Positions 53,367 to 63,407 of a stretch of 64,000 bases of DNA are shown here, one piece after another; the stretch's first letter is position 1; every line of letters begins with the position of its first letter. The notes beneath the pieces are model-generated. The model was not told the DNA's origin. It was given only the letters and a program-made list of their open reading frames with translations, and made no database searches. The stretch comes from Proteiniphilum propionicum (lineage in GTDB: Bacteria; Bacteroidota; Bacteroidia; Bacteroidales; Dysgonomonadaceae). The translations under genes were made by a program, and so were the position numbers. Location of the stretch: assembly GCF_022267555.1 (NCBI RefSeq), contig NZ_CP073586.1:1178001-1242000 (forward strand), in the 5' to 3' direction.

Positions 53367-54266
53367 ATGCTTACATTTAAAACAATAGAATTAAAGGATA
53401 GAGACATAATAAATTCATATCTCGAAAAACAAAATTACAGAGCTTCGGATTTATGTTTTACAAACCTGTTCACATGGGGAAAGAAGTTCAGCACACAATT
53501 CGCAGTAAGTGATAATCTGCTGTTTATTAGGTTTAGAGACAATAATAATCGCAACTCATACCTTAAGCCTGTTGGATTGGGAGACATTAAAAAGGGTATA
53601 GAAATAATCATAGATGATCATAAGCAGTTCGGTTCCGTTTTTCAGATTAGAGGTGTGACAAAAGAGATGATCAGAGAAATTGAAGAAGCGATGCCGGGAA
53701 GGTTCGAATATAACCTTAACAGAAGTGTTTCAGATTACATATACACCACCGAAAAACTGATACATCTTAAAGGGAAGAAGCTGCAAAGTAAACGTAATCA
53801 TATCAACCGGTTTAAACGTGAAAATGAGTGGCAGTACAAATCACTTACAGGTAATCGTGTATTGGTAGAAGAGTGCAAAAGCATGCTTGACAAGTGGATG
53901 AAGATTAACGGTGAAGAGAAAGACCCCTCACTCGTATATGATGATTACGCAACGACACAGATGTTGTATAATTTTGAATATCTTAATTTGATGGGAGGGC
54001 TGATATGCGTGAACAGCGAAATTGTTGCCTTCAGCATTGGAGAGAAGCTTACACAAGACACTGTTGTAGTTCATGTGGAGAAAGCTTTTACAACCACTCA
54101 CGGTGCATACAACATCATTAATCAGCAATTTGTCGAAAATGAGGCTTCAGAATTTACCTATGTGAATCGTGAAGAGGACATGGGGATTGATAATCTACGT
54201 CAGGCTAAGCTTTCCTATCAGCCTGATATTATTTTGGAAAAATACAACGCAAGATTCAAAAGCTAA
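53367..54266 (+). CDS. DUF2156 / phosphatidylglycerol lysyltransferase-domain protein
   Basis: A 299-residue soluble protein with the double GNAT-like fold of DUF2156 (LPG_synthase_C). Typical parts are NYRASDLCFTNLFTWGKKF at the N-terminus, SKRNHINRFKRENEW in the middle and YVNREEDMGIDNLRQAKLSYQP near the end. Membrane-bound relatives transfer lysine from lysyl-tRNA to phosphatidylglycerol; this protein lacks the flippase half, so its acceptor is unknown. A GNAT gene follows after 60 nt. Confidence 0.85.
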   Translation: MLTFKTIELKDRDIINSYLEKQNYRASDLCFTNLFTWGKKFSTQFAVSDNLLFIRFRDNNNRNSYLKPVGLGDIKKGIEIIIDDHKQFGSVFQIRGVTKEMIREIEEAMPGRFEYNLNRSVSDYIYTTEKLIHLKGKKLQSKRNHINRFKRENEWQYKSLTGNRVLVEECKSMLDKWMKINGEEKDPSLVYDDYATTQMLYNFEYLNLMGGLICVNSEIVAFSIGEKLTQDTVVVHVEKAFTTTHGAYNIINQQFVENEASEFTYVNREEDMGIDNLRQAKLSYQPDIILEKYNARFKS

Positions 54267-54326
54267 CTGTTTATCATACGTTATCTGCATTGCCTGATTA
54301 GGTTTCACCGTTATTTCGATTAAAAC

Positions 54327-55202
54327 ATGATTCAATTTGCCGACGATAATACAAAACAGCAGGTTTGGGATATGTGGAAAACCGTGTTCAACGATCCGGA
54401 TGACTATATGGAGGTTTATTTTCGCTGGAAATACCTTAACGAGAATACGCTTATATATATTGAAGATGGCAAAGCTGTTTCCTCTCTGCAGATGTTGTCT
54501 TACCAGTTCACTTTTTGCGGGACGGAAATTCCTGCTATCTATCTTTCCGGTGTGTGTACCTTGCCTGAATACAGAGAAAAAGGGTATAGCCGGCAACTGC
54601 TGATAAAAAGTTTTGACGTCGCTGCCGGCAGGAATGTGCCAATCATCTTGCTTGTGCCTCAGGAAGAGTGGCTGTTGAGGTTTTATGACAAATTGGGTTT
54701 TGCCCGTACTTTTGACCCCGGAGCGGAGGCTTTGCCTTCTCTGAAAGAGTTGACGCAAAAATATCCGGGCGATCTGTACGCCGCATTCAGGGAGTTTGAC
54801 TCTTTGTTCCGTCATAAAGATGTGACTGTTCAGAAGTCGTTCGATGATTTTTATGCCATGGTTGAGGAGGCGGCACTTTTCGGGTTCCCTCCCAAAAAAA
54901 ACCTGATGGGTATGGCGCGAGTGATTGATGCACATAGACTGATCTCGATATTTGCCGAACGGTACCCGCAAACAGCGTTTTCTATATCTGTACGGGATGA
55001 ACTGCTGAAAGTAAACAGTGCCTCTTTTACAGTTGTGGGAGGAGAAGCTAGGAGATACAGCCCTCCAGAAAAATCTCTCTTTCATGCAAATATCCGAAAA
55101 TTGGCGCAATTGCTTTTCGGATATCACACTTTAGGGGATGAAGAGCCATTTAGTGCTGTTTTCCCTGAAAAAGTCCCTTCTATGAGCTATATGCTGGAGT
55201 GA
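54327..55202 (+). CDS. GNAT family N-acetyltransferase
   Basis: A 291-residue protein with an N-terminal acetyltransferase domain. The acetyl-CoA-binding motif is GVCTLPEYREKGYSRQLL (about residues 72-89), followed by LVPQEEWLLRFYDKLGFART. The C-terminal half is a second, degenerate GNAT/sterol-carrier-like part as in Eis-type enzymes. The substrate is unknown. It forms a pair with the DUF2156 gene; its end precedes the sigma gene by 62 nt. Confidence 0.85.
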   Translation: MIQFADDNTKQQVWDMWKTVFNDPDDYMEVYFRWKYLNENTLIYIEDGKAVSSLQMLSYQFTFCGTEIPAIYLSGVCTLPEYREKGYSRQLLIKSFDVAAGRNVPIILLVPQEEWLLRFYDKLGFARTFDPGAEALPSLKELTQKYPGDLYAAFREFDSLFRHKDVTVQKSFDDFYAMVEEAALFGFPPKKNLMGMARVIDAHRLISIFAERYPQTAFSISVRDELLKVNSASFTVVGGEARRYSPPEKSLFHANIRKLAQLLFGYHTLGDEEPFSAVFPEKVPSMSYMLE

Positions 55203-55264
55203 AATTGAATATTTTAAAAAAATCTGATATTATTGTTGTATATTTATGGGTCAATAAAAGTTTT

Positions 55265-55876
55265 ATGGATAATCATCAGTCTGATGCACACGATGTTCGC
55301 GAGAGAGCCCTTGTCTTCCGTCTTGTGAACAATGATGAAGAGGCTTTCAGTGAATTATATGCCAGCTACAAGGACCGGTTGATCTATTTTGCGATGAGAT
55401 TTGTTAAATCAAGAGAATTTGCTGAAGATATTTTTCATGATGTGTTTTCGGTTATCTGGCAATCCCGTCATTTTATCAATCCGGAGTATTCTTTTTCATC
55501 TTATGTTTATACCATGGTAAAAAACAGGGTATTGAACATGTTGAGGGGAATAGAAAGTGAGAAGAGAGTCATGCAGGCAATTCTTTCGCAAGCTATCGAT
55601 TACAATGACGACACAAGCCGGAACGTTCTGTATAATGAATTAAATGAAATTATTGAAAAAGCTATAAATCGTCTTACACCACGACAAAAAGAGATATTCC
55701 GGATGAGTAGAGAAGAGCATATGTCGCACCGTGAAATAGCTCAAAAACTGAACCTTTCCATATATACCGTGCAGGAACATATTACGCAGGCTTTAAAATC
55801 AATAAGATGCTTTTTGGCGAAATACCCCGGGAGTATGGCCGATCTGTTGTTGATCCTGATTTGTTTAAATATATAA
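55265..55876 (+). CDS. ECF RNA polymerase sigma factor of the PUL
   Basis: A 203-residue sigma-70 family factor of the Bacteroidetes ECF group linked to FecR. Region 2 is FSELYASYKDRLIYFAMRFVKSREFAEDIFHDVFSVIW. Region 4 is LTPRQKEIFRMSREEHMSHREIAQKLNLSIYTVQEH, with a helix-turn-helix. The C-terminal tail is hydrophobic (SMADLLLILICLNI), common in this group. ATG 55265 (MDNHQSDAH) is the natural start; the longer frame overlaps the preceding gene. It should direct transcription of the downstream receptor genes when released by FecR. Confidence 0.93.
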   Translation: MDNHQSDAHDVRERALVFRLVNNDEEAFSELYASYKDRLIYFAMRFVKSREFAEDIFHDVFSVIWQSRHFINPEYSFSSYVYTMVKNRVLNMLRGIESEKRVMQAILSQAIDYNDDTSRNVLYNELNEIIEKAINRLTPRQKEIFRMSREEHMSHREIAQKLNLSIYTVQEHITQALKSIRCFLAKYPGSMADLLLILICLNI

Positions 55877-55957
55877 AATTAAGTTAACAACACCCCTGCT
55901 TCTTTCGTCTGAAGTGTATTATAAGTATACAAGGATATATTTTAAACATCCTTTTGA

Positions 55958-56944
55958 ATGTTCATGAAAGGGAATAAAGATAAAACAACAGTTATTCATC
56001 GTTTTCTGAATGGGACTTATACCGTAGACGAGGCTTACGCCTTTTTGGAGGAGAGTAATGATCCCGTCAATAAAGATATTATTGAGGAGGCTGCATTCAG
56101 CGTCTGGGAGGAATCGCAGTTCCTCGAAAAAACCGGGGACCCGCTGAATAAGGAATATAAAGAAGAAGCTTACACTATTTTAAAAGATATTGAGAAAAAG
56201 AAAAAAAGATCCCTAAAGCCTTTGTTTTTAGTGGCAGGAAGCATTGCAGCCGCAATAGCGGTCATCTTTTCCTTTTTTCGCCTATATGAGGGGGTTTCCC
56301 GTCAGGATATTTATTATGAATGCATTGAAACTACTTATGGGGAAAGGAAAGATATTACTTTACCGGATGGGTCAATGGTTACCCTCAATTCTTGTTCCCG
56401 GTTGCGTTATCCTGCAAAATTCACACAGCAGGCTCGTGAAGTGATGCTTCAGGGTGAGGCTTTTTTCGATGTTGCCAGGGATCCCGACCGGCAGTTTGTG
56501 GTGACTGCCGGGCAGTTTTGTGTGAAGGTCTTGGGCACGGCATTCAATATCAAGTCATACGATATGGATGAAATTACCTCCGTTAAGGTTGATAGAGGTA
56601 AGGTTCAGATTGAAATGCCGGAGGCAACCATGAGACTCTCTGCACAGGAACGGGTTGAGGTGAATTCCCTTAGGGGTACGATAAAAAAACATCAGGATCT
56701 ATACGAGACGGCAGGCTGGAGAAAAGGGTGCCTCTATTTTGACGCTACTCCTATTCAGGACGTAGCCAGAGAGCTGGAGAGAGAATACAATTGTTCTATA
56801 GTCTTTCAGGAGGGACAGGAGTTTGATAACCTTATTTCAGGAGAGCACGACAATCAGAGTCTTGAGTCCGTTCTGCAGTCACTTGAGTATATTTCAGGAA
56901 TCAAATACAATAAAGACAACTATCACATACTTTTATATAAATAA
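55958..56944 (+). CDS. FecR family anti-sigma factor
   Basis: A 328-residue inner-membrane regulator. The cytoplasmic part (1-88) binds the sigma factor. One transmembrane helix spans about 88-108 (FLVAGSIAAAIAVIFSFF). The periplasmic FecR domain has ERKDITLPDGSMVTLNSCSRLRYP and EAFFDVARDPDRQFVV, and the C-terminal DUF4974 domain GCLYFDATPIQDVARELEREYN. It senses the STN domain of the cognate SusC. Start at 55958 or the ATG two codons later. Confidence 0.93.
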   Translation: MFMKGNKDKTTVIHRFLNGTYTVDEAYAFLEESNDPVNKDIIEEAAFSVWEESQFLEKTGDPLNKEYKEEAYTILKDIEKKKKRSLKPLFLVAGSIAAAIAVIFSFFRLYEGVSRQDIYYECIETTYGERKDITLPDGSMVTLNSCSRLRYPAKFTQQAREVMLQGEAFFDVARDPDRQFVVTAGQFCVKVLGTAFNIKSYDMDEITSVKVDRGKVQIEMPEATMRLSAQERVEVNSLRGTIKKHQDLYETAGWRKGCLYFDATPIQDVARELEREYNCSIVFQEGQEFDNLISGEHDNQSLESVLQSLEYISGIKYNKDNYHILLYK

Positions 56945-57006
56945 CATATCAAAAAATAGATGCCTATGAATAAAACCTCAACAACTTAATTATTTCTTAT
57001 TATATT

Positions 57007-57036
57007 AAAAAAGAGCAACCCTGTTCAGGGCTGCTC
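57007..57036 (-). terminator. Minus-strand intrinsic terminator inside the fecR-susC spacer
   Basis: GAGCA-CCCTG (57013-57023) pairs with CAGGG-TGCTC (57026-57036) with one A-C mismatch and a tight loop. On the minus strand it is followed by six T (57012-57007); on the plus strand no T run follows. It therefore serves a minus-strand transcript, although no minus-strand gene is annotated here. Confidence 0.65.
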
Positions 57037-57125
57037 GGGATGATACTACAAAACAACCCTACTGTTTGCATCATATGGTTGTTTGTGGTAAATCAGTTTA
57101 ACAATCTCACTAAAATCATTAAACT
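57007..57125 (-). ncRNA. Candidate cis-antisense sRNA to the susC leader
   Basis: The minus-strand promoter at 57162-57129 would start a transcript near 57122-57125, ending at the T run 57012-57007. This gives an RNA of about 118 nt fully complementary to the susC 5' leader, beginning 11-14 nt before the susC ATG. In Bacteroides fragilis several ECF/FecR-controlled PULs carry antisense RNAs at exactly this place (DonS type) that repress the susC-like gene. The placement, size and signals agree; expression is inferred. Confidence 0.55.
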
Positions 57126-57128
57126 TTA

Positions 57129-57162
57129 CAAAGTTATGAATAATCTGACAGCTGTGAACAAA
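57129..57162 (-). promoter_or_regulatory. Minus-strand promoter of the antisense RNA
   Basis: -33 TTTG (57162-57159), 22-nt spacer, -7 TAACTTTG (57136-57129), reading away from susC. The box overlaps the A of the susC start codon, so sense and antisense initiation regions are interlocked. Confidence 0.55.
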
Positions 57163-60100
57163 AATCTTAAAAACATTATTCTGTTTTTTTCTTTTCTCTG
57201 TCTGAACCTTTTGTTGGTAACTCCTTCCTACGGTCAGAACGTTAAGGAAAAAAACATCACATTTTATGTTAAAAATGGGCAGTTGGTTGATGTCCTTAAC
57301 AAAATCAGCCAGAAAACAAGCTTTAAATTTTTCTATGATCAGAGCACCTTACGCAAAGTTCCGCCAGTGACTATTGATGTAAAGGATGCCGGTATACAGG
57401 AGTTGCTGGATGTTATTACCGAACAAACAAAACTCTACTTTTACCGGACAGATAATACAATATCAATAAGCAAAACCCCACCAGTAATACAAAAGGCAAT
57501 TACAGGCAATCAGAACCAACAGGAGAAAGTAGTTACGGGAAAAATCACCGATGAAGCCGGTGATCCGGTTATTGGTGCCAACATTATTGAAAAAGATGTC
57601 GTAAGTAACGGAACGGTTACTGATATAGACGGCAATTTTTCGCTGAAGGTAAAATCAAATGCAACGATAACCATTTCTTACATAGGTTATGTGGAACAGG
57701 AGATACTAGTGGGGGACAGGAGTTTTTTCAGTATTGTACTGAAAGAAGATACCAAAACCCTGGATGAGCTCGTAGTTGTCGGGTATGGGACACAGAAAAA
57801 ACTCAATCTTACAGGTGCCGTCGCATCTGTTTCGGGCGATGTGCTGAGTGATAGGCCAATAGGCAATATTGCGCAGGGGTTGCAAGGGGTCATACCCAAC
57901 TTGAACATCACCTTTACAAGCGGACAGCCATCGGCAGGTGCCGGGATCAATATCAGGGGTAACACATCGTTAAACGGCGGGTCGGCCCTTGTGTTGATCG
58001 ATGGCGTAGAGGGCGACCTCTCCCTGATTAACCCGCAGGACGTAGAGAATGTTTCCGTTTTGAAAGATGCCTCTTCGGCTGCCATTTATGGTGCCCGTGC
58101 CGCATTTGGTGTGATGCTGGTAACCACTAAGCAGGGACGTGAAAACCAGAAAATAAAGATCAACTATAATAATAACCTGGCATGGAGCACTCCGGCACGT
58201 TTGCCTGAGATGCCGAGAGCCGATGTATGGGCGAGAGCATGGAATGATGCGTATGACAGTGAGTCGCCGGGCGACTATTATTTCAACGACCGTTTCCTGG
58301 CTGCGCTTGATGCACATATTGCCGATCCTGAAAATAATCCGGCTATCCTGGTGGACACCGAAGGTATTCAGAGCCCCAATTATACACCTAATAATCCCGG
58401 TTGGGCCTATGTTGGTAATACGGATTGGATTCATGAGTTTTATAAGGATGCCGCATTTATGCAGCAACATAATCTCAGTATTTCAGGTGGTTCGGACAAA
58501 TCAAGTTATTACCTTTCCGGCGGTTTTAAAGATCAGGGTGGAATCTTTCGTTATGGGAATGATGACTATAAACGTTATAACCTCTCTTTTACCTTCGATA
58601 CAAAGATGACCGACTGGCTTGACCTCGGTTTTTCAACCAAATACAATTATACAAATAATGATGAACCGTATAAGGCTGGCTCATCTGCCGAGACCTGGTA
58701 TTATGAAGTATATAGGATGTTTCCTACACTGTCGGTCTTTTTGCCCAATGGCGATTTTGCAGGAATGTCGCTGAGTCGCGGTAACTTTAATGTAATCGGT
58801 CATATGGCTGAGGCAGGACGTAGTATTAGTACCGGGAATGACATGTGGTATACCGGACGTTTCGACCTGCATCCATTCAAAGGCCTCTCTATTAAAGGAA
58901 ACTATACGTTGAATAAATATTTCGGAAGAAGCAAAATACATCGTAAGACGGTTTACCAGACCATGCCCGAAGGGGTGGCTCCGGTTGAGAGCCAGACACC
59001 TAATTTTGTGTCTAACGGGAATAGCGAAAATAATTATCAGACATTCAACGTGTGGGCAGAATATAACTGGGATATAGACAAACTTCACAATTTCAAGGCG
59101 ATGGGTGGATATAATCAGGAAGGAAAAGATTACAAGGGATTGTCATTCAGAATGTCAGACCTATTCGATAATGAAACTCCTATTTCCGATCTGGCCATAA
59201 ACTATGTCAGCAATAACGAAACCGATACGCGATGGAGGGTACAGGGTCTGTTCTATCGGTTAAATTACGATTTCAAATCAAAATACCTTCTGGAATTGAA
59301 CGGTCGCTATGACGGATCTTCAAAATTTCCTTCCGGCAAGCGCCATGTGTTCGTACCTTCTGCATCTGCCGGCTGGAGAATATCGGAAGAGAGTTTTTTC
59401 ACTCCCCTACGCGGTGTGATAGATAACCTGAAACTCAGGGCATCTGTAGGGGTTCTGGGTAACCAGGCTATCAGTTCCTACTTCTCTTACATAGCATCTC
59501 TTACTGGTGGAGCCATGAGTAATTATATGATGAATGGCGAACCTCTCACCTATCTGTCGGCTCCCTCGTTGCCAAACAATGTTACATGGGAGAAAGTAAT
59601 CAGCAGTGATGCCGGAATAGATCTGGCCTTGTTTGATAATCGCCTCTCCGGATCCTTCGATTATTATATCCGAGATACGAAAGATATGATACGCTCTGTG
59701 ACACTTCCAGCTGTATTGGGTACCAGTGGAGGGCAGGAAAATCTTGCCGATATGCGAACCAAAGGATGGGAACTTGAAGTTTCCTGGAGGGATAAGATCA
59801 GCAATGTCCTGGGTAGCCCCTTGACCTATTCTTTATCGGCAGGTCTTTCTGATTATCAGGCTGAAATTACCAAATTTGATAACCCTACCGGTTCTTTGTC
59901 AATGTATTACAAGGGTTGGAAAATGGGAGACTATTGGGGATATGTTACTGATGGGTTTATAAGGGATGAGCATGAGGCTGCCCGTATGAATTATATACAA
60001 AGTTACATTTACCATACATGGAAGCCTGGAGATATCCGTTATAAGGATGTTAACAACGACGGGGTGATCAATATCGGTAAAAACACGTTGGATGATCCGG

Positions 60101-60630
60101 GTGACCTGGTGATTATTGGAAACAATACACCCAGATACCGCTATAACGCACAGCTGGATATCAATTGGAAAGGAATTGGCCTGTGGGTGATGTTCGACGG
60201 AGTAGGAAAGCGTGATGTGTGGACCAGCAGCGACCAGTTCTGGGGATTCCCGCGTGGCATCTACAACGGAAATATTTTCCAGTACCATATCGATAATACC
60301 TGGAGCCCGGAAAATCCTGATGCATACTATCCAAGAAAGTCGTTAAACAACAGGAATATACAGCGACAATCGAAATATTTATTGAATGCAGCCTATTTAA
60401 GATTGAAAGGCCTGACCTTCAGTTATAATCTTCCGAAGAAATACGTATCCAGTTTATTTATAGAGCAATTGAGAATTTATGTGAGCGGAAATAATCTGTG
60501 GGAAAAAACACATATGCCTCCGTTTATGACTCCCGATATAACGGAGAGCCTGAGCGATGGAGGGTCCAATTCAGGAAAAGAGTATGCTTTTATGCGAAAT
60601 TTTTCTCTTGGAGCAAACATTACATTTTGA
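57136..60630 (+). CDS. SusC/RagA-family TonB-linked receptor with STN signalling domain
   Basis: A 1164-residue outer-membrane transporter. ATG 57136 (MNNLTAVNKNLKN) precedes a signal peptide ending near SYGQ; a longer frame to 57040 has no such logic. Domains: STN (about 35-110, ITFYVKNGQLVDVLNKISQKTSFKF), carboxypeptidase-regulatory-like domain (about 130-215), TonB box (LDELVVVGYGTQKK), plug (IRGNTSLNGGSALVLIDGV, VLKDASSAAIYGARAAFG) and a large barrel ending NITF. The STN domain marks a receptor that signals to FecR as well as importing. It forms a pair with the SusD gene 28 nt downstream. The glycan imported is unknown. Confidence 0.97.
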   Translation: MNNLTAVNKNLKNIILFFSFLCLNLLLVTPSYGQNVKEKNITFYVKNGQLVDVLNKISQKTSFKFFYDQSTLRKVPPVTIDVKDAGIQELLDVITEQTKLYFYRTDNTISISKTPPVIQKAITGNQNQQEKVVTGKITDEAGDPVIGANIIEKDVVSNGTVTDIDGNFSLKVKSNATITISYIGYVEQEILVGDRSFFSIVLKEDTKTLDELVVVGYGTQKKLNLTGAVASVSGDVLSDRPIGNIAQGLQGVIPNLNITFTSGQPSAGAGINIRGNTSLNGGSALVLIDGVEGDLSLINPQDVENVSVLKDASSAAIYGARAAFGVMLVTTKQGRENQKIKINYNNNLAWSTPARLPEMPRADVWARAWNDAYDSESPGDYYFNDRFLAALDAHIADPENNPAILVDTEGIQSPNYTPNNPGWAYVGNTDWIHEFYKDAAFMQQHNLSISGGSDKSSYYLSGGFKDQGGIFRYGNDDYKRYNLSFTFDTKMTDWLDLGFSTKYNYTNNDEPYKAGSSAETWYYEVYRMFPTLSVFLPNGDFAGMSLSRGNFNVIGHMAEAGRSISTGNDMWYTGRFDLHPFKGLSIKGNYTLNKYFGRSKIHRKTVYQTMPEGVAPVESQTPNFVSNGNSENNYQTFNVWAEYNWDIDKLHNFKAMGGYNQEGKDYKGLSFRMSDLFDNETPISDLAINYVSNNETDTRWRVQGLFYRLNYDFKSKYLLELNGRYDGSSKFPSGKRHVFVPSASAGWRISEESFFTPLRGVIDNLKLRASVGVLGNQAISSYFSYIASLTGGAMSNYMMNGEPLTYLSAPSLPNNVTWEKVISSDAGIDLALFDNRLSGSFDYYIRDTKDMIRSVTLPAVLGTSGGQENLADMRTKGWELEVSWRDKISNVLGSPLTYSLSAGLSDYQAEITKFDNPTGSLSMYYKGWKMGDYWGYVTDGFIRDEHEAARMNYIQSYIYHTWKPGDIRYKDVNNDGVINIGKNTLDDPGDLVIIGNNTPRYRYNAQLDINWKGIGLWVMFDGVGKRDVWTSSDQFWGFPRGIYNGNIFQYHIDNTWSPENPDAYYPRKSLNNRNIQRQSKYLLNAAYLRLKGLTFSYNLPKKYVSSLFIEQLRIYVSGNNLWEKTHMPPFMTPDITESLSDGGSNSGKEYAFMRNFSLGANITF

Positions 60631-60658
60631 CGATAACATAATTTAAAACACAAAAGTG

Positions 60659-62428
60659 ATGAAAAAATATATATATTTATTAACCTATATAACACTAACA
60701 ATGATAAGCTGCAACTACCTGGATGTGGAACCTGGGGATACTATTACCGATACCCGGTTTTGGGCTACGGCCAACGGGGTTGCACTGGAACAGTATTGTC
60801 ATACCTATTATCCAAGCCTGGTAATCGGACATGGGAACCCTAATTCGTGGGACGGCAGCCCCCTGATTACCGGCGATCTGCAATCCGATAACCTCTTGAG
60901 TGGAGGTGCGAATCAGATTGCATTCGGTAAAAATGTGAAAAACCATACCGATGGGGCATGGAGTTGGGGTGTTATACGCGGATGTAATGCATTTCTGGAG
61001 AATTACATGCGTAGTCCGGCATCGGCGAATGATAAAAAACATTATGCAGGAGAGATCTATTTCTTCAAAGCTTGGGATTACTTCAATAAAATGAAACGTT
61101 TTGGCGATCTGCCTTGGTATGACAAGGTGCTGGATAAAAACGATCCGGACCTTTACAAGAAAAGGGATTCACGCGTGCTCATAACAGACTCCATACTGAT
61201 GTGCCTGGACAGGGCAATAGAGTACCTGCCCAAGCAGACCGATGTGTGTAAGGTGAGTAAAAATGCTGCTTTATTACTGAAAGCAAGAGTTTGTCTGTAT
61301 GAAGGGACCTGGAGGCGTTACCGCGATATGGAGGGCGATGAAGAACTGTTAAAGAAGGCATACGATACCGCGGGTGAGTTGATGAAGACCGAATATGGGC
61401 ATAATCTATATACTGGTAACGGCACGGAGATGAGCTATTTCAACCTCTTTATACAGGATCATTATCAGGGAAATCCTGAAATCATATTATCTCGTGAGTA
61501 TGATCCCGCAATAAATATGGGACATCAGATCTCCAGGCAATATCCGATGAGTAATTACGGTATGAGTAGGGATTGTTTTGAAGAATATTTGTGTTCCAGA
61601 ACAGGGAAACCGATATCTGTCTGCGGATGCCACAATCCCCACATGGGATATCTGTCGGAGATGATGGATCGTGATAGACGTCTCGTACAGACTATCTGCG
61701 TGCCTGATCCGAACAGTCCTCATGCACAGTATCTGTACAGGAAGGACGGAGGTCTTATGAAAGGAGGAGCTCCCAATATCTTCAATCTTTTTGACGGAAC
61801 CAATGAACGGCCGTTTTACGGAACATCCGTTACAGGATATTGTATCAGTAAGTTCTATAAAGCTTCTGAATGGGAAGGTACCGAGGCTTTCAAAGGAACC
61901 ACCGATGCACCGGTAATGCGTTATGCCGAGGTGTTGCTCATAAGAGCCGAAGCAGGGGCTGAACTGGGACTGGACCCGGAACTGGATAAAACGATCAATG
62001 CCTTGAGGCGGCGTGTAGGGTTCTCCTTCGACCTGACTGCCAACCCTGTTGAGGATCCTGACCTGGTCAGTAAATATCCCGATATAAAAGGAGCCGACAA
62101 AAATCTTATTCGCGAGATCAGGCGGGAACGTCGTATCGAACTGTTTGCCGAGGGCTATCGATGGGATGACCTTTGTCGCTGGAGAGCAGGAGTGAACCTG
62201 TTGAACCGTGAGCGGAGAGGAGCGATTATGGATTCCAAATTCTATTCAGCAAAAGAGATCAATATGATCAGGGAGAAAATAGGATTCGATGAGGATGGAT
62301 TCATTACTCCTTATGCCATAAGGGTTACATATAAACCCTCTTTCACGGAAAAAAACTATCTGTTCAATATTCCCATTGAAGAGACTTCTCTTAATCCTAA
62401 TCTATTACCCGATAATCCGGGATGGTAA
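60659..62428 (+). CDS. SusD/RagB-family nutrient-binding outer-membrane lipoprotein
   Basis: A 589-residue surface lipoprotein with signal peptide and lipobox MISC (cysteine at 18). N-terminal TPR-like helices include YAGEIYFFKAWDYFNKMKRFGDLPW. The C-terminal SusD motif is RRERRIELFAEGYRWDDLCRW and the protein ends with a RagB-type IPIEE stretch. It acts as the lid of the SusC barrel and binds the glycan. ATG 60659 is preferred to the adjacent upstream GTG. Confidence 0.96.
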   Translation: MKKYIYLLTYITLTMISCNYLDVEPGDTITDTRFWATANGVALEQYCHTYYPSLVIGHGNPNSWDGSPLITGDLQSDNLLSGGANQIAFGKNVKNHTDGAWSWGVIRGCNAFLENYMRSPASANDKKHYAGEIYFFKAWDYFNKMKRFGDLPWYDKVLDKNDPDLYKKRDSRVLITDSILMCLDRAIEYLPKQTDVCKVSKNAALLLKARVCLYEGTWRRYRDMEGDEELLKKAYDTAGELMKTEYGHNLYTGNGTEMSYFNLFIQDHYQGNPEIILSREYDPAINMGHQISRQYPMSNYGMSRDCFEEYLCSRTGKPISVCGCHNPHMGYLSEMMDRDRRLVQTICVPDPNSPHAQYLYRKDGGLMKGGAPNIFNLFDGTNERPFYGTSVTGYCISKFYKASEWEGTEAFKGTTDAPVMRYAEVLLIRAEAGAELGLDPELDKTINALRRRVGFSFDLTANPVEDPDLVSKYPDIKGADKNLIREIRRERRIELFAEGYRWDDLCRWRAGVNLLNRERRGAIMDSKFYSAKEINMIREKIGFDEDGFITPYAIRVTYKPSFTEKNYLFNIPIEETSLNPNLLPDNPGW

Positions 62429-62447: not shown

Positions 62448-63407
62448 ATGATACGAATAAATGATTTAAAATCGAATAAAAAATATATTACTCTCTGGTA
62501 CTTTGTATGTATGCTGTTTTTCAGCTGCTCTTCTTCATCTGATGAGGTGGTGGTGCCCGGCTTGCACAAAGGGGCGAAAACCCCGTTGATGCAATCGGTT
62601 GCCGATTATATGGATAAGATCCAGGTGGTGGAAAAGGATTCGTCCTATCAGCTTACGGAGGGATTAACAATTACAGAGGTGAATTTCAGGTACTTGACCC
62701 GGCCTACCCGGATGTTTGTTGCCGAGATCGATTTAGATAAAAATCTTTCGGTTGTGACATGTACGCCCAACAATGAAAATATTCAGAAAACACGTCAGAC
62801 AATTCCGGAACAAATGATTTGGGCAGAAAAAGCGGGAAAGAATGTCGTACTTGGCGTAAATGGTGATTTTGCAGGTGAAAGCGCTGATAAAACAAAATTG
62901 TTCACCATGAATATTTTTGTGAAGGACGGGCAGATACTGAAAGAGACCTATTATCCCGGGTATGAAGGCTTGTTTGTCGTTTTGAAGAATGGTGAAAGCA
63001 AAATAATTCACCCCAAGGACTTTGAGGGGATAAAAGACGATGTGCTGGAGGCCATGGGCGGATATCATTCGTTGGTAAGAGAGGGAGAGGAAAATAAAGA
63101 GATGCCTGTTGATGACCTTTCCATGCAGTTTGCTCCACGTACTTTTATTGGTTTGTCAAAAGATAATAAGAGATGTTTTCTGTTTGTGATAGATGGGCGT
63201 CAGGAAGGTTATTCTTCCGGGATGCGGCTGGAAGATGTCGCCACTTTATGTAAAGGCGCCGGATGCTACAATGCAATCAACCTGGATGGCGGAGGATCCA
63301 GTACTTTTGTCATCAAAGATAAAACAGGCAGTTTTAATGTATTGAACAAACCGTCCGACGGTCAATTGCGGCCGGTTATCAACGGATTAGTAGTTATAAA
63401 AAAATGA
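62448..63407 (+). CDS. Phosphodiester glycosidase family lipoprotein (NAGPA domain)
   Basis: A 319-residue lipoprotein; the lipobox is LFFSC and an acidic linker follows. Most of the protein is the NAGPA/DUF2233 fold: VVLGVNGDFAG, FAPRTFIGLSKDNKRCFLFVIDG and the hallmark NLDGGGSSTFV near residue 280. Mammalian NAGPA removes GlcNAc from GlcNAc-1-phospho-6-mannose; bacterial relatives cleave sugar-phosphodiester bonds. Its place right after susCD suggests that the target glycan carries such a linkage, an inference. Confidence 0.92.
   Translation: MIRINDLKSNKKYITLWYFVCMLFFSCSSSSDEVVVPGLHKGAKTPLMQSVADYMDKIQVVEKDSSYQLTEGLTITEVNFRYLTRPTRMFVAEIDLDKNLSVVTCTPNNENIQKTRQTIPEQMIWAEKAGKNVVLGVNGDFAGESADKTKLFTMNIFVKDGQILKETYYPGYEGLFVVLKNGESKIIHPKDFEGIKDDVLEAMGGYHSLVREGEENKEMPVDDLSMQFAPRTFIGLSKDNKRCFLFVIDGRQEGYSSGMRLEDVATLCKGAGCYNAINLDGGGSSTFVIKDKTGSFNVLNKPSDGQLRPVINGLVVIKK

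Follow-up and report, generated by a model that had tools for sequence, protein, structure and literature searches.

The closest described counterparts of the element analyzed here are the DonS-type RNAs of Bacteroides fragilis, which, according to the parts of the published accounts considered throughout this text, are 78 to 128 nt long, divergently encoded and antisense to the susC homologs of PULs (PMC7366714). DonS represses its PUL by a mechanism stated in those parts as unknown (PMC11697453), and 15 PULs of B. fragilis are said to carry such antisense RNAs (PMC9723704). In Bacteroides thetaiotaomicron, 10 PUL-associated antisense RNAs were annotated initially (PMC7366714) and 32 at a later date (PMC10994844), and a canonical sigma-ABfr promoter was found at 52% of all the cis-antisense RNA candidates of this organism (PMC7366714, PMC10994844). 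Both negative and positive correlations between antisense RNAs and their PULs have been published, so that repression cannot be assumed (PMC10994844). A preliminary description of the Proteiniphilum locus had linked it to the PUL antisense repressors of B. fragilis, and this link agrees with the sections of the literature that we consulted (PMC7366714, PMC10994844, PMC11697453, PMC9723704).

The locus is found in a stretch of 64 kb (hereafter, the window) that is part of a 3.9-Mb single-contig genome. An ECF sigma gene, fecR, susC (with an STN domain), susD and a gene for a phosphodiester glycosidase with an NAGPA domain follow each other in this order:

55265 to 55876, plus strand: ECF sigma factor gene (TIGR02985, Sigma70_r2, r4_2)
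55958 to 56944, plus strand: fecR-type anti-sigma gene (PF04773, PF16344)
57136 to 60630, plus strand: susC-type TonB-dependent receptor with an STN signaling domain, the presumed antisense target (TIGR04056, PF07660, PF07715)
60656 to 62428, plus strand: susD-type lipoprotein gene (PF07980)
62448 to 63407, plus strand: phosphodiester glycosidase (NAGPA) domain gene, after susD (PF09992)

The start of the sigma gene is uncertain, as the open frame also allows a GTG at 55199. For susC, the start at 57136 was preferred over an in-frame ATG upstream (57040) because a signal-peptide-like stretch follows 57136 at the usual distance. The phosphodiester glycosidase at 62448-63407 hints at a phosphodiester-linked glycan as the substrate of the PUL. 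A SusC segment with 99% identity was found in a MAG, Proteiniphilum sp. UBA4977 (L083), where the start of susC is missing.

The spacer between fecR and susC contains, on the minus strand, the following elements:

57159 to 57162, minus strand: TTTG, proposed as a -33 element with a 22-nt spacer to the -7 box, unsupported
57129 to 57136, minus strand: -7 box TAACTTTG of the antisense RNA, 6/6 match to TAnnTTTG
57095 to 57125, minus strand: 5' hairpin of the predicted antisense RNA, 14 pairs in the predicted fold
57013 to 57036, minus strand: intrinsic terminator stem-loop GAGCAGCCCTGAACAGGGTTGCTC, 10 pairs, 6 of them GC
57007 to 57012, minus strand: T6 tail of the terminator
57007 to 57125, minus strand: predicted antisense RNA of about 116 to 119 nt, from the span between box and terminator

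The GC-rich hairpin and T6 tail reported in the preliminary description were recovered at 57036-57013 and 57012-57007, and this terminator was the best minus-strand terminator-like site of the 64-kb window by the score of our own script. The described overlap of the -7 box with the start of susC is also real, with 6/6 positions of TAACTTTG matching and a single base shared (57136, the A of the ATG at 57136-57138). The same description considered the promoter near consensus, which holds for the -7 box. The TTTG at 22 nt is present, but among the 34 surveyed spacers with both box and terminator (see below) this arrangement is found in one, the window itself, and TTTG showed no positional enrichment, reaching at most two of the 34 at any spacing from 10 to 31. 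The antisense promoter call therefore rests on the -7 box, as a -33 TTTG at that spacing appears only in the window.

From the terminator and the -7 box, therefore, an antisense RNA of about 116 to 119 nt is predicted, with its 5' end at about 57122-57125 and its 3' end within the T run. The product would be complementary to the leader, as proposed earlier, although it would leave the start codon itself uncovered, the predicted 5' end lying ca. 11 nt upstream of the ATG. The segment 57125-57003 folds with -40 kcal/mol (z = -5.3 against dinucleotide shuffles), and the RNA without the terminator hairpin still gives a z of -3.2, with 2 of 200 shuffles equally stable. Two inverted repeats were seen near the start codon. 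The one at 57095-57125 would allow the sense leader to form a mirror hairpin just upstream of the translation start, and AACTTTACAAAGTT, at 57122-57135, directly precedes the susC ATG, one of its halves being the minus-strand -7 box. A covariance-model search of positions 54000-60000 against Rfam gave four matches at E values of up to 5, all well short of their gathering scores; the minus-strand match in the region reached 19.6 bits against a gathering score of 45, and all four were judged to be due to chance.

To place the window among related loci, we compared 124 spacers between fecR and a receptor gene from 29 genomes, obtained from 132 FecR_C loci after dropping 8 in which our rule gave no receptor start. 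The FecR_C matches used (E ≤ 1e-8) were 17/17 from the own genome, 67/130 from 12 genomes of the same genus and 48/54 from a 40-genome sample of the phylum, the last two subsets leaning to better E-values rather than being random. Receptor starts were assigned by a signal-peptide rule that is blind to the box, apart from two hand corrections (the window gene and L005). A 6/6 -7 box was found at offset 0 to the receptor ATG in 43/124 spacers (41/124 without the two hand-corrected starts), and no more than two at any other of the 109 offsets; as background, 4 of the 2,273 ATG triplets in the window carry a 6/6 box. No mention of this start-codon register was found in the consulted parts of PMC7366714, PMC10994844, PMC11697453, PMC12596196 and PMC9723704, and the founding study on DonS (Cao et al. 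2016) may contain it. With the standard demand of 6 T in 8, terminators were detected on the minus strand of 59/124 spacers (17/29 genomes) and on the plus strand of none (0/124), while mononucleotide-shuffled spacers gave 0/1,240. Both signals go together, with a terminator in 34 of the 43 spacers with a full box versus 25 of the 81 without it (p = 5e-7, a value that, like the others given here, ignores kinship, the spacers being partly paralogs or orthologs and thus not 124 independent trials). For instance, L231 and L232, which have both signals, share the same final 80 nt.

By the criteria used, 65/124 spacers are without a terminator and 81/124 without a full box. Some of these are near misses: 14 terminator-bearing spacers have a 5/6 box, and in 12 of these the C at -7 is replaced by T, so that the minus strand reads TAnnTTTA; among the nine with a box but no terminator a hairpin-only scan found a strong hairpin in five. 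Terminator, box and both were found, respectively, in 10, 8 and 7 of 16 spacers of the own group (which includes L016 and not L058), in 34, 26 and 22 of 60 from the same genus, in 14, 8 and 4 of 31 from the same class, and in 1, 1 and 1 of 17 from other classes of the phylum. Three further families within the class also had terminators, and in two of these there were full boxes too. The only one of the 17 out-of-class spacers with a register-locked box and a minus-strand terminator was L173, from genome G073. Sequence data thus support the promoter box, the terminator, the register of the box with the ATG and its recurrence.

The own genome provided a control. Forty-eight of its SusC proteins are above the family cut-off, and for 15 of them a PF16344 FecR match lies immediately before the gene; L058 was put in the linked group for its STN segment, with no adjacent FecR demonstrated. 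The box was tested at every in-frame ATG of the leader region in all groups, and terminators were sought within 300 nt. A minus-strand terminator was detected for 10 of the 15 fecR-linked genes and a 6/6 box at an in-frame ATG for 8 of the 15 (0 for L058 in both cases), versus 0/32 and 0/32 (88 in-frame ATGs tested) for the 32 genes without a linked fecR. Counting L058 as linked, the difference is significant for the terminator (Fisher p = 1.2e-6) and the box (3.4e-5). Plus-strand terminators were absent upstream of all 48 genes (0/48). An earlier scoring, with the first ATG for the genes without fecR and two hand-chosen starts, gave the same box counts (8, 0 and 0). The first terminator scan misses stems that pair into the T tail (L075), which a second scan covers; re-scoring all 48 genes with it left the counts unchanged.

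We also examined the region upstream of ten SusC orthologs with 56 to 77% identity. In eight of them, susC is directly preceded by fecR (PF04773 and PF16344, each above cut-off). The preliminary description had asked whether relatives with this PUL keep the signals, and the answer is divided. Both are kept in four of the eight, a Prolixibacteraceae MAG (77%), Bacteroides pyogenes and two Barnesiella, but the other four, all Prevotellaceae (72, 72, 61 and 60% identity), have fecR beside susC and show neither a terminator nor a full box, with 2, 2, 5 and 5 of 6 positions matching (by locus, 2, 5, 2 and 5 for L076, L077, L082 and L085). For the two at 72% the sigma gene was confirmed as well. In L078 and L084, which have no adjacent long upstream ORF, there was no terminator and the box matched at 3 and 4 positions. 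Eight remote SusC loci (28 to 32% identity) had no terminator, by the first scan only, and no 6/6 box. Judging by sequence, the antisense architecture is kept in several lineages and lost or never gained in one. The signals extend beyond Bacteroides, to the own and same-genus genomes (Proteiniphilum), the two Barnesiella and the Prolixibacteraceae MAG.

Related hairpins were inspected for compensatory changes. In two groups of related terminators (six and seven sequences), 98.5% and 98.8% of the pair cells are kept. Four and three pairs, respectively, have changes in both partners, and the pairing falls to 24 to 51% when the partners are shifted by 1 to 3 columns. The shuffle controls gave uneven results. 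In the six-sequence group, 10/500 shuffles attained the observed value for each of pairing, both-side changes and covariation score, and 126/500 did so for further pair types. In the seven-sequence group, no shuffle (0/500) reached the observed pairing, both-side cells or covariation score, but pairs with both-side changes were reached by 102/500 and further pair types by 500/500. No alignable relative of the window's own hairpin was found in the set, so the covariation belongs to other members only. Comparative evidence strongly favors the original proposal, in which the spacer of fecR and susC holds the gene of a cis-antisense RNA: the register-locked box, the terminators confined to the minus strand, the lack of both at the 32 own-genome susC genes with no linked fecR, and these compensatory changes.

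A further recurrent element is located near the fecR end of the spacer:

56961 to 56969, plus strand: TGCCTATGA motif, candidate sense-strand element, from the recurrence of CCTATG

Within a region reaching from 40 nt ahead of the fecR stop to 140 nt beyond it, CCTATG (usually as TGCCTATGA) was observed in 44/124 spacers versus 2.35 expected by shuffling, two of the 44 (L152 and L180) having it inside the end of fecR. It was present in 38 of the 59 spacers with a terminator versus 6 of the 65 without one, and in 2 of the 32 susC genes without a linked fecR. Of 38 distances measured in terminator-bearing spacers, 36 place its end 21 to 44 nt before the antisense terminator stem (44 nt in the window). 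TGCCTATGA may belong to the ECF promoter of the sense strand or mark the start of the leader. Iterative motif sampling for a -35 block upstream of it gave 4.04 bits, versus 3.52 to 3.77 in four shuffles, at scattered positions, which is unconvincing, and as the start of a leader peptide it opens reading frames with a median of only three codons. An A-rich tract is seen upstream of the motif. Two Prevotella orthologs without the antisense signals (L076 and L082) have two CCTATG per spacer, one near the fecR end and another ca. 25 nt before the susC ATG.

Taken together, positions 57007-57125 of the minus strand are probably the gene of a DonS-type cis-antisense RNA, transcribed from a housekeeping promoter and opposing the expression of susC. 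We infer antisense transcription, repression and the balance between pairing and collision in the following form. RNA polymerase with the housekeeping sigma would start at the -7 box that overlaps the start codon of susC, read back through the leader and stop at the intrinsic terminator, ca. 62 nt after fecR. As long as FecR sequesters the cognate ECF sigma, the antisense RNA would be made and leaky susCD expression would remain low, either by pairing with the leader from the A-rich zone 11 to 15 nt before the ATG, a zone reported to serve translation initiation in Bacteroidota (PMC7366714), by collision of polymerases or by both. Once the substrate activates the ECF sigma, sense transcription would overrun the antisense promoter and the brake would be lifted.

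Transcriptional interference alone, in which polymerases that set out at the start codon of susC run into those of the sense strand or obstruct them and the RNA is a by-product, is a possible but rather unlikely explanation, and it overlaps with the preferred one, which allows both pairing and collision. It would fit the pattern in which the position of the promoter and the terminator are conserved while the body of the RNA varies between paralog groups, with lengths, under the assumed start, from 68 to 157 nt in the 34 members with box and terminator (24/34 within 78 to 128 nt), and a cis-antisense RNA is fully complementary regardless of its sequence. However, a strong terminator and stable folds are more in keeping with a stable RNA, and similar antisense RNAs of B. 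thetaiotaomicron were seen on Northern blots, according to the portions consulted (PMC7366714, PMC10994844).

Many antisense starts of B. thetaiotaomicron are described, in the text considered here, as giving short, weak and perhaps spurious transcripts (PMC7366714), and the box could likewise be a spurious, functionless promoter of AT-rich DNA (pervasive transcription); we consider this improbable, as both the register and the terminator are seen again in different paralogs, genera and families and, in the own genome, are absent at the susC genes without a linked fecR. Slightly less probable still is that CAAAnnT-ATG is a context for translation initiation that resembles TAnnTTTG by coincidence. 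The A at -6 agrees with the preference of Bacteroidota mRNAs, in which A is favored at -3, -6 and -11 to -15 according to the consulted part of PMC7366714. Yet the 59 spacers with a terminator have C (37) or T (19) at -7, T at -1 (51) and T (28) or A (19) at -3, and C or T at -7 and T at -1 are foreign to that preference. Besides, none of the 32 other susC genes has the box at an in-frame ATG (88 tested), and the box is tied to minus-strand terminators, which a translation signal does not need. The first ATGs of 45 ORFs of the window, taken as a weaker control, gave 0 as well, by a rule that misses the window's own susC start. Finally, that the hairpin acts as a leader structure of the plus strand (an attenuator or the 3' end of fecR), with no antisense RNA, is very improbable, since the stem exists in the sense leader too but the T run follows it almost only on the minus strand (59 versus 0 of the 124 spacers with 6 T in 8, 70 versus 3 with 5 in 8 and 72 versus 12 with 4 in 8).

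Beyond this locus, we are evenly divided over a broader statement, namely, that receptors of Bacteroidota controlled by ECF sigma and FecR often carry a standard antisense module, in which the -7 box and the start codon are fused in fixed register as CAAAnnT-ATG, the RNA has its 5' end pinned to the translation-enhancer zone at -11 to -15, and the leader is flanked by opposing sense and antisense promoters, TGCCTATGA lying at the sense end. If such a module exists, drift could not part the start codon from the brake, and the module would persist while the body of the RNA changes freely. If the register rule holds, antisense RNAs would become predictable from Bacteroidota sequences, with their 5' ends placed within a few bases, and pairing could be cleanly tested against collision.

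Compared with known systems, the predicted RNA is like DonS in its antisense orientation to the 5' part of a PUL's susC homolog and in its predicted length, about 116 to 119 nt, which falls within 78 to 128 nt. Taking the class as RNAs with a housekeeping-type promoter and an intrinsic terminator, the window has both, the -33 element not being conserved. It differs from DonS in its host, Proteiniphilum instead of Bacteroides, and in its PUL, with susCD followed by the NAGPA phosphodiester glycosidase. It shares the DonS-like orientation with the antisense RNAs of B. thetaiotaomicron, some of them validated by Northern blot, a comparison made by description only from the parts of PMC7366714 and PMC10994844 considered. 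The FopS/GibS sRNAs (PMC11697453, PMC7366714) offer another point of reference, as FopS RNAs, deposited in Rfam, are described in the consulted portions as repressing PUL susC mRNAs at the 5' end (PMC11697453). A common 5' seed lets them pair with several susC mRNAs, whereas the predicted RNA of the window would be fully complementary in cis. The predicted RNA of the window probably belongs to a published kind of PUL antisense RNA, and its start-codon register is the part worth testing.
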